Shown here piece after piece: positions 25,909 to 28,474 of a DNA stretch of 43,066 nt. A program made the position numbers and the translations under genes. This DNA comes from Peptostreptococcaceae bacterium (GTDB taxonomy: Bacteria > Bacillota > Clostridia > Peptostreptococcales > Filifactoraceae): positions 1 to 43,066 of the forward strand of contig JAUNKE010000012.1 of assembly GCA_030532905.1 (NCBI GenBank). Direction: 5' to 3'. The notes beneath the pieces were generated by a model. It was not told the DNA's origin. It did no database searches and saw only the letters and a list, made by a program, of their open reading frames with translations. The stretch's first letter is position 1, and every line of letters starts with the position of its first letter.

Positions 25909-25937
25909 TTGACAAATTTTCAGTTTAAGAGTATATT
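25909..25937 (+). promoter_or_regulatory. Promoter of the riboswitch-permease-folP operon
   Basis: Consensus TTGACA (25909-25914), 17 bases, TATATT (25932-25937). It overlaps the T tract of the preceding terminator. Predicted start near 25944, about 20 bases before the riboswitch. Confidence 0.82.
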
Positions 25938-25965
25938 GTCAATATAAAAAGAGTAGAAATTCTAC

Positions 25966-26056
25966 ACAGAGTAGGCAAGATGCGTTAAGTGTTCGTAAAT
26001 GGGATGTTGTTACGAAACGAAGTGTTTCACACGCGACTGATTGCCGCTTCCGCTGT
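25966..26056 (+). promoter_or_regulatory. Tetrahydrofolate (THF) riboswitch, class I
   Basis: The conserved elements of the class-I THF aptamer occur in order: GAGTAG, GCGTTAAGTG, AATGGGATGT, AACGAAG, and the 3' TTCCGCT. The pairings are present: P1 ACAG (25966-25969) with CTGT (26053-26056); P2 GGCAA (25974-25978) with TTGCC (26041-26045); and a perfect P3 arm TTCGTAA with TTACGAA around ATGGGATGTTG. These blocks match the known Eubacterium siraeum aptamer nearly base for base. The RNA senses reduced folates. Here it is followed by a terminator and then an SLC13-like permease and folP. Confidence 0.93.
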
Positions 26057-26072
26057 AATACTATTTTGCGGG

Positions 26073-26095
26073 AGCACTGTTGAGTGCTTTTTTTA
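26073..26095 (+). terminator. Riboswitch-controlled terminator
   Basis: AGCACT, GTTG loop, AGTGCT and a seven-T tract, 16 bases after the riboswitch and upstream of the permease start. TTCCGC at the riboswitch 3' edge (26048-26053) can instead pair with GCGGGA (26068-26073), touching the first terminator base. Attenuation by THF is the simplest model. Confidence 0.82.
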
Positions 26096-26119
26096 TGTCA
26101 ATTTGTAGGAGGTGTTCTC

Positions 26120-27499
26120 GTGAAAAAAATTAAACCTTTTCACCTCGCAGTCATCACTGCGATTGCCATTTTAGCAGCGATTCTTAATCCGCTGCAAATG
26201 GATTTTAACCAAAGGATTTTACTGTCCTGTCTTATTTTCACCGTTGCAATCTGGGCAACGGAGGCGATTCACAAAAGCATTGCCTGTGTTTTTCTTTTGT
26301 TATCCTTTTTTATCTTCGGAAAAACCCCGCCGCTTGAGATTCTCAAACTCACTTGGTCGGGAACGATTCTGCTGATTGTGACGACGACCCTGCTTTCCGT
26401 CGGCATTATGAAAACGGGCATCGTGCATCGCTATGTGCACAAGCTTTTTCAAAAAAACTCATCCGGCGTCATTCCGTTGATGTTGTTGCCGTATATTTTC
26501 GGAGTCGTACTCGTATTTTTGATTCCGCAAGCATTTGCACGCGTCATCATCATCGGAACGATTTTCAGCAGCCTCATCCATGCGAACAACGAGGAGGAGA
26601 ACAAAGCCAAACAGGCACTCATTTTCAACGGATTTATTGCCATTACGATGACCTATATGTTTTTTGTCAACGGCGATATCGTGCTCAATCAGGCGGCGCT
26701 CAATTTTGCCGGCGATGAAGTAAAGCAGACGCTGAGCTTCGGCAAATGGTTTACGATGATGCTCGTCCCAACGCTCGTGACCTGCGGAGTCGCTTTTCTC
26801 ACAACCTACTTGGTGTTCAAAAAAGATTTGAGCGCTTTCAAAAAAAGCATGATTGCTCACGACGATTCGAGCGGCAATGAGTTTTCCAAATTCAAACAGC
26901 AAATCGGCGTTGTCACGATGGCAGTCATCATCCTCTTTTGGATGACACAGAGCATACATTCGATTCAGCCTTGGATAATTGCACTCGTAGGCGTCATCGT
27001 CATGTTCGGTGCAAAGATTTTGGATAAGAACGATTTGAAGTCCGTCAATCTGCATCTGATTTTATTTCTAATCACCGTATTCAACATCGGAAAAGTGCTC
27101 GGTCAAAGCGGCATTACCGGAATCATCTTCGAGCATCTGAAACAGCTTATCCCGAATGCCAACTCGGCGACCTATCTGCTGATTATAGCCACCATCGTTA
27201 TGATACTGCATCTTTGCATCGGCTCATCCGTTGCCACGATGTCGGTGGTGCTGCCGATTCTGATTCCGTTGACGCAAAGCCTCGGTTATCAGCCGGAAGT
27301 CATCACGCTGATGACCTATGCGATTGTCAATATTCACTTCCTGCTTCCTTTCCATCACGCAACCGTCATGATTGGAACCGCAAGAGAATATTATCCGGAG
27401 CGCAGCATGTTCCGATTCGGTCTTCCGATGACCATCATCACTTTCGTACTGCTCGCACTCGTTTATTTCCCATACTGGAGAATGCTCGGTGCTTTATAA
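26120..27499 (+). CDS. SLC13/DASS-like permease under THF riboswitch control
   Basis: A 459-residue membrane protein with about 11-12 helices. It resembles the divalent-anion/Na symporter (DASS, SLC13) branch of the ion-transporter superfamily: FTVAIWATEAIHKSIACVFLLL near the N-terminus and LHLCIGSSVATMSVVLPILIPL with a re-entrant look near 365-385. The usual SNT sodium/substrate motif is not clear in either half, so substrate and coupling may differ. The start is GTG at 26120, with AGGAGG 7 bases upstream; an earlier in-frame ATG lies within the terminator. folP begins 12 bases after the stop. Riboswitch and folP neighbour suggest import of a folate precursor such as p-aminobenzoate. This is inference. 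Confidence 0.72.
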   Translation: MKKIKPFHLAVITAIAILAAILNPLQMDFNQRILLSCLIFTVAIWATEAIHKSIACVFLLLSFFIFGKTPPLEILKLTWSGTILLIVTTTLLSVGIMKTGIVHRYVHKLFQKNSSGVIPLMLLPYIFGVVLVFLIPQAFARVIIIGTIFSSLIHANNEEENKAKQALIFNGFIAITMTYMFFVNGDIVLNQAALNFAGDEVKQTLSFGKWFTMMLVPTLVTCGVAFLTTYLVFKKDLSAFKKSMIAHDDSSGNEFSKFKQQIGVVTMAVIILFWMTQSIHSIQPWIIALVGVIVMFGAKILDKNDLKSVNLHLILFLITVFNIGKVLGQSGITGIIFEHLKQLIPNANSATYLLIIATIVMILHLCIGSSVATMSVVLPILIPLTQSLGYQPEVITLMTYAIVNIHFLLPFHHATVMIGTAREYYPERSMFRFGLPMTIITFVLLALVYFPYWRMLGAL

Positions 27500-27511
27500 G
27501 AAGGAGAAAAT

Positions 27512-28474
27512 ATGATATTTCAATATAGAGACAAACAAATCGAAAGCAGAAAAAGAACCATCCTATGCGGCATCATCAATGTGACGCCGGATTCTTTTTC
27601 CGACGGCGGAAAATACAATTCAGTGGAGAAAGCCGTACTTCGCGCTAAAGAATTGATTGCCGAAGGAGCAACCATGCTCGACATCGGCGGAGAATCCACA
27701 AGACCCGGCAGCTCGCCGGTAGCGATTGAAGAAGAAATCAATCGTGTCATTCCCGTCATCAAAGAGCTTAAAAAAATCACCGATATTCCGATTTCCATCG
27801 ACACTTGGCGAGCCGAAGTCGCAAAGGCGGCAATCGATGCCGGCGCGGACATCGTCAATGACATCACCGGATTCTTGGGCGATGAAAATATGGCAAAGGT
27901 CGTCGGCGAATCCGACGCCGGTGCGATTGTGATGTTCAATCCCGTCATCGCGAGACCGAATCACGACGGCTCCAAAATCTTTCGTACTTTCGGAAATAAT
28001 CCGTTCACCGCAGACGAGCTTTCCTCATTTGAAAATATGCCGATTGTTGAGCTGATGAAGGCTTTCTTCCGAAAGAGCCTTGCGCTTGCCGAGCAAAATC
28101 ATATTCCCAAAGAGCGCATCATGCTGGATCCCGGCATCGGTTTCGGTTTGACAAAACGAGAGAATCTTATTTTAATCAACCAAGTCGATTGCATTCGCGA
28201 GATGGGATATTTCACTTTCTTAGGCGTGTCTCGCAAGCGATTCATCAGCAATATTTTGGAAGAAAGCGGATTCAATGTCAATCCGGAAACCGCGGAAGGT
28301 TTGGAAAATCGAGACGACGCATCCGCAAAACTCACCGCCATCGCCGCTTACAAAGGGGTCGAGGCATTGCGCGTGCATACGATTGAAAAACACAAAATGG
28401 CGATTGAAATTGCCGACGCCGTTCGACTTGCCGACGAAATGCAGGACATCAACTTCGGCGCATACAAAAAATAG
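27512..28474 (+). CDS. folP: Dihydropteroate synthase
   Basis: A 320-residue enzyme joining p-aminobenzoate to hydroxymethyl-dihydropterin pyrophosphate, the sulfonamide target. Family motifs are [12 protein letters not shown] (22-33), GGESTRPG (59-66), ISIDTWR (95-100), IVNDITG (114-120), LDPGIGFG (205-212), GVSRKRF (238-244) and the terminal RVHT. It is longer than usual (about 265-285). Where most DHPS have a short MH-x-R-G segment, this one has [17 protein letters not shown] and about 30 extra residues (141-178). It is read with the permease from the THF riboswitch. GGAG precedes the ATG. Confidence 0.93.

Follow-up and report, generated by a model that had tools for sequence, protein, structure and literature searches.

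The window, that is, the whole stretch of 43,066 nucleotides analysed here, lies on a contig from a Peptostreptococcaceae genome of 2.48 Mb (96% complete). It carries folate genes that look like two transcription units, as an intrinsic terminator follows folBK and a sigma-70-like promoter lies directly 3′ of this terminator (Table 1). The first unit comprises folE, a gene for an HD-domain protein and a folBK fusion; the HD-domain gene is recurrent in fol operons, where it adjoins folE, folP or folBK in many relatives. The second putative unit comprises a permease gene and folP, and it is the only one of the two that carries a riboswitch. The permease gene starts with GTG, preceded by AGGAGG, and its distance of 12 bases from folP, as given in the first-pass annotation, was confirmed. 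Directly downstream of folP lies a gene for an ECF transporter S component (28592–29173; PF07155, 94 bits), which was not seen at this position in related loci; its identification as FolT was rejected because TIGR04518 had no match on this contig. Two further transport regions are encoded on the minus strand. An energy-coupling module (21124–23676) with one EcfT-like and two ATPase genes is divergent from the folE unit, and the region 31624–42255 contains three similar genes for oligopeptide-type binding proteins in a row (31624–33426, 33955–35823 and 36606–38414), then two permease and two ATPase genes.

Table 1. Features of the folate gene region in the window
Feature	Position	Strand	Evidence
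folE (first unit), GTP cyclohydrolase I	24015..24569	+	TIGR00063 equivalog, 217 bits
HD-domain protein	24571..25047	+	PF01966
folBK fusion, dihydroneopterin aldolase and HPPK	25055..25882	+	TIGR00525 and TIGR01498, above cut-off
Intrinsic terminator of the folE–HD–folBK unit	25885..25902	+	7-bp stem, then T run
Sigma-70-like promoter, TTGACA-17-TATATT	25909..25937	+	11/12 consensus positions
Class-I THF riboswitch aptamer	25965..26057	+	RF01831, 67.4 bits, E 2.4e-13
Terminator hairpin of the expression platform, with T tail	26070..26091	+	Terminator-like hairpin
DASS/IT-superfamily permease, 459 aa, candidate p-aminobenzoate importer	26120..27499	+	PF00939, 102 bits; AlphaFold
folP, dihydropteroate synthase, Streptococcus pneumoniae type	27512..28474	+	TIGR01496, 253 bits

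The permease matched PF00939 (Na_sulph_symp, the wider DASS/IT group) over residues 9–458 with 102.1 bits against a gathering score of 27, and remained below the curated cut-off of TIGR00785 (DASS sodium-coupled anion symporter; 116.7 versus 198.6 bits). An AlphaFold model computed with 38 relatives had a mean pLDDT of 90.2 and a pTM of 0.87. The predicted structure was closest to NaDC3 (8uve; Z 33.8, 440 residues, rmsd 3.0) and also aligned with LaINDY (Z 29.3; Foldseek E 1.4e-13), and the whole chain of the model has the DASS fold of these two proteins. The permease thus resembles the DASS/SLC13 proteins LaINDY, VcINDY, NaDC3 and AtDiT1/2 in its whole-length fold (Z 23–34), its two hairpin motifs and its PF00939 match, but differs from them in its low identity (about 15–18%), its score below the TIGR00785 cut-off, the replacement of the SNT-type motif I by QAF and its different inferred substrate. 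The best solved relatives carry dicarboxylate, citrate, sulfate or phosphate, and at 15–18% identity they are too distant for naming a substrate; assignment of the cargo by homology was therefore discarded.

The substrate site itself appears to be altered. The two SNT-type substrate/sodium motifs of the DASS family were not found in the permease: motif I reads PQAFAR where LaINDY has PSNSAR, in agreement with the lack of a clear SNT motif in the first-pass annotation, and motif II reads GSSVAT. Paralogues in the wider family mostly have PQPFxR and GSxxTT, whereas the fol-linked clade described below has PQAF(A/S)R and GS(S/A)VA(T/S). The clade therefore differs from the paralogues by P138A in motif I and T372A in motif II, and residues 138 and 372 are jointly alanine. 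These paired alanines, one in each substrate-site motif, could be what a change of substrate looks like.

The distribution of the permease was analysed in 54 loci from a scan of one genome per species, to which two order-wide searches added G371, G205 and G514. In the permease tree, the window permease belongs to a clade supported by 100/100, which includes Peptoniphilus mikwangii, Vaginisenegalia massiliensis, a Granulicatella, an Alkalibaculum MAG and others. The 16 clade loci span Clostridia, Tissierellia and Lactobacillales, a taxonomic range that suggests horizontal spread. Linkage to folate functions recurred in distant lineages: a THF riboswitch was directly upstream of the permease gene in 10 of the 16 loci (window, G005, L093, L095, L096, L098, L099, L119, G371 and G514), folP was directly downstream in nine (window, L093, L095, L096, L097, L099, L100, G371 and G514), and at least one of the two was adjacent in 12. 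At G005 and L119, folP is not visible because the contig breaks off beyond the start or the end of the permease gene, and neither element was adjacent at L094, L101, L103 and G205. A THF-like match at the appropriate place in L097 (24.8 bits) was below the threshold, and this locus was not accepted as riboswitch-bearing. The Granulicatella locus has the order riboswitch–permease–folP–folC–folE–folBK. In G514, the permease orthologue between the THF riboswitch and folP (L203, 7621–9051) contains one in-frame stop, owing either to decay of this copy or to an error in sequencing.

The examined flanks of the more distant paralogues contained no fol gene, and the 13 paralogues scanned for a THF riboswitch had none nearby. 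The paralogues L102, L104 and L067/L107 lie directly after genes for 2-oxoacid ferredoxin oxidoreductase, butyrate kinase and phosphate butyryltransferase, which suggests, as a lead only, that they are carriers of branched or short-chain carboxylates. Given such neighbours, the wider family may carry monocarboxylates, and the clade permease could be imagined to transport an unrelated anion, or a pterin, with its folP linkage reflecting shared regulation only. This explanation is quite improbable, because the linkage is specific to folP and repeated, and because folE, folB and folK are present and leave no pterin missing.

The class-I THF aptamer and the terminator that the first-pass annotation had placed in front of the permease gene were both recovered. 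The aptamer covers the full RF01831 model (1–99) above the gathering score of 36, and is the sole Rfam match in the window. Shortly after the 3′ strand of the aptamer, GCGGGAGC overlaps the 5′ arm of the terminator, and it is complementary to GCTTCCGC within that 3′ strand, thereby forming a possible antiterminator. The succession of GCTTCCGC, GCGG(G/A)AGCACTG...CAGTGC and a T tract is shared by L093, L098 and L119, and G005 has a slightly modified form of it. The leaders of L096, L099 and G514 (the latter two judged by eye) have different hairpins, each with a T run behind it, and no clear terminator was found in those of L095 and G371. The isolated platform folds better than shuffled sequences, with z values of −2.8 for the window and −3.5 for G005. 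The simplest reading of this leader is an off-switch that would act by transcription termination, and its response to the ligand is what we infer from these elements. Class-I THF riboswitches have been described in front of folT, folC and folE (PMC9881143); the present one is of the same aptamer class, with a full-length match and a transcription-terminator platform, but its target is a DASS-like permease together with folP, which is unnamed in the literature found.

The enzyme encoded next to the permease exceeds the DHPS equivalog cut-off of TIGR01496 (253 versus 162.6 bits), and its best solved relative is 2vef (404 bits). By its sequence, FolP is a canonical DHPS. The protein is divergent, and an extra stretch at approximately residues 140–180 had raised the option of a special enzyme with another acceptor; this option was dropped when FolP proved to be of the type known from S. 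pneumoniae. The acceptor of DHPS is p-aminobenzoate (pABA).

The first-pass annotation had found no pabA, pabB or pabC in the window, and for the chorismate-using enzyme this absence extends to the whole genome, as PF00425 had no match in 2.48 Mb. This profile detects PabB and TrpE and was positive in all 14 control genomes. It found nothing in 15 of the 16 clade genomes, and the only match, in G102, sits in the order trpE-G-D-C-F and is thus TrpE. PabB is therefore absent in 16/16 clade genomes, an absence that is not absolute as it rests partly on draft and metagenome assemblies (several MAGs). FolP was present in 14 of the 16 genomes; it was not found in G005, which is 79% complete, and G205 was outside the search. 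FolK was present in 12 of the 13 clade genomes searched, with G005 as the exception, and folE is near folK in most clade genomes. The non-canonical pABA enzyme CADD was absent when searched. By comparison, PF00425 was absent in only 8 of the 45 other folP-containing genomes of the window's order (one-sided Fisher test, p = 2e-8, kinship uncorrected), and a survey of gut genomes tabulates 415 of 1886 folate-making genomes without pABA synthesis (PMC6593275; p = 8e-10 for the clade, kinship uncorrected).

These eight genomes of the order (G030, G033, G034, G041, G052, G064, G075 and G094) have folP, lack PF00425 and do not carry this permease. Their fol operons contain no recurring transporter, so no alternative importer emerges from them. 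As pABA can cross membranes by diffusion, these genomes also indicate that an importer is not strictly needed. The 'pABA source?' variant described for gut bacteria likewise has FolE-B-K-P-C without pab genes, with pABA salvage proposed; the available part of that report names no pABA transporter, and the present permease could fill this role in some of these genomes (PMC6593275).

The gap left by the missing PabB could also be filled by a pABA conjugate. The main rival explanation is that the permease imports such a conjugate, either p-aminobenzoyl-glutamate, which arises from folate breakdown, or a related compound, and that this cargo is hydrolysed inside the cell or used directly by FolP. 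Carriers of the AbgT family have been associated with both a pABA compound and sulfonamides, and the structures of YdaH and MtrF share part of the permease fold. Their match to the model (Z 14–16) is much weaker than that of the DASS proteins (Z 29–34), and we know of no fol linkage in the AbgT family. No recurring hydrolase gene linked to the permease was seen in the loci inspected, and FolP is of the ordinary DHPS type. We regard this alternative as unlikely.

The same riboswitch class controls different genes within the family of the window genome. In the sister species G006, it precedes pabA-pabB-pabC-folE-folP-folBK, at the place where the window genome has the permease, and in G001, G002 and G003, where no FolP was found, it precedes FolT. 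Within one family, the same switch thus controls pABA synthesis, folate import, or the permease with folP. It is very improbable that the permease exports sulfonamides or other antifolates and is switched on by a fall in THF: the title of entry 4r1i names antimetabolite efflux as the function of an AbgT-type relative, and antifolate stress would induce a pump controlled by a THF off-switch, but efflux leaves unexplained both the pabABC genes at the same place in G006 and the lack of PabB throughout the 16 genomes.

The association of the switch with FolT in relatives, together with the lack of FolT above the cut-off in the window genome and in nine other clade genomes, could instead make the permease an importer of folate or reduced folate, analogous to FolT. 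FolT and the permease occur together in six clade genomes, which argues against a simple substitution. In one of these, G371, each has its own THF riboswitch: of the riboswitches at 10415–10511 and 16889–16977 of L187, one precedes the permease–folP pair and the other a FolT-like gene. Moreover, an importer of folate would have no need for a co-transcribed FolP gene, and the pterin branch has been retained. Folate import therefore has a very small probability in our assessment. Two THF riboswitches approximately 2.3 kb apart were also observed in G055 (L076; 737–828 and 3033–3124), each before its own FolT-like gene and with folC in between. The ECF folate transporters FolT and ThfT (PMC9712650) serve uptake for the folate pathway in Gram-positive bacteria, and FolT is often behind the same riboswitch class, but they belong to an unrelated protein family and carry finished folates rather than a precursor.

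Import of pABA is the explanation that we prefer. The first-pass annotation had proposed that the permease brings in a folate precursor, most simply pABA, and this proposal is supported by the recurrent linkage and the absence of PabB. The riboswitch, the operon shared with folP and the lack of PabB in every clade genome indicate that the permease most likely imports pABA, which is the simplest cargo given that FolP is of the ordinary DHPS type and that the genome retains the pterin branch. In the window genome, where FolT above the cut-off and PabB are both missing, pABA is the sole precursor that the pathway cannot make. The locus is thus probably a pABA salvage unit, namely, a THF-repressed importer of pABA feeding FolP; the inward direction of transport and the substrate are what we infer from the genomic evidence. 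When THF is scarce, the 3′ strand of the aptamer (GCUUCCGC) in the nascent leader would pair with GCGGGAGC on the 5′ side of the terminator, transcription would continue, and the permease and FolP would be co-produced. The permease, with its DASS fold and rebuilt substrate site, would bring pABA into the cell, where FolP would join it to the pterin supplied by FolE, FolB and FolK. When THF is plentiful, the bound aptamer would allow the terminator to form, thereby turning off the permease and folP.

At the level of the family, it is reasonably likely that the clade constitutes a dedicated group of bacterial pABA importers, which would have derived from DASS proteins through the change in both motifs, spread horizontally with the FolP gene under THF-riboswitch feedback, and would replace pabABC in bacteria that make folate with pABA salvaged from their neighbours or host. 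In the open-licence literature, neither a THF-riboswitch-controlled DASS permease nor a bacterial pABA importer was found to be named. Bacteria that keep the folate pathway without pABA synthesis are widespread, with 454 gut strains reported in the gut survey (PMC6593275). How such bacteria obtain pABA is a question that the riboswitch-linked transporter gene makes directly testable. The permease–folP unit adds a target for THF riboswitches, and the permease gene would provide a marker for pABA cross-feeding. Because sulfonamides mimic pABA, the permease may also bear on sulfonamide sensitivity.
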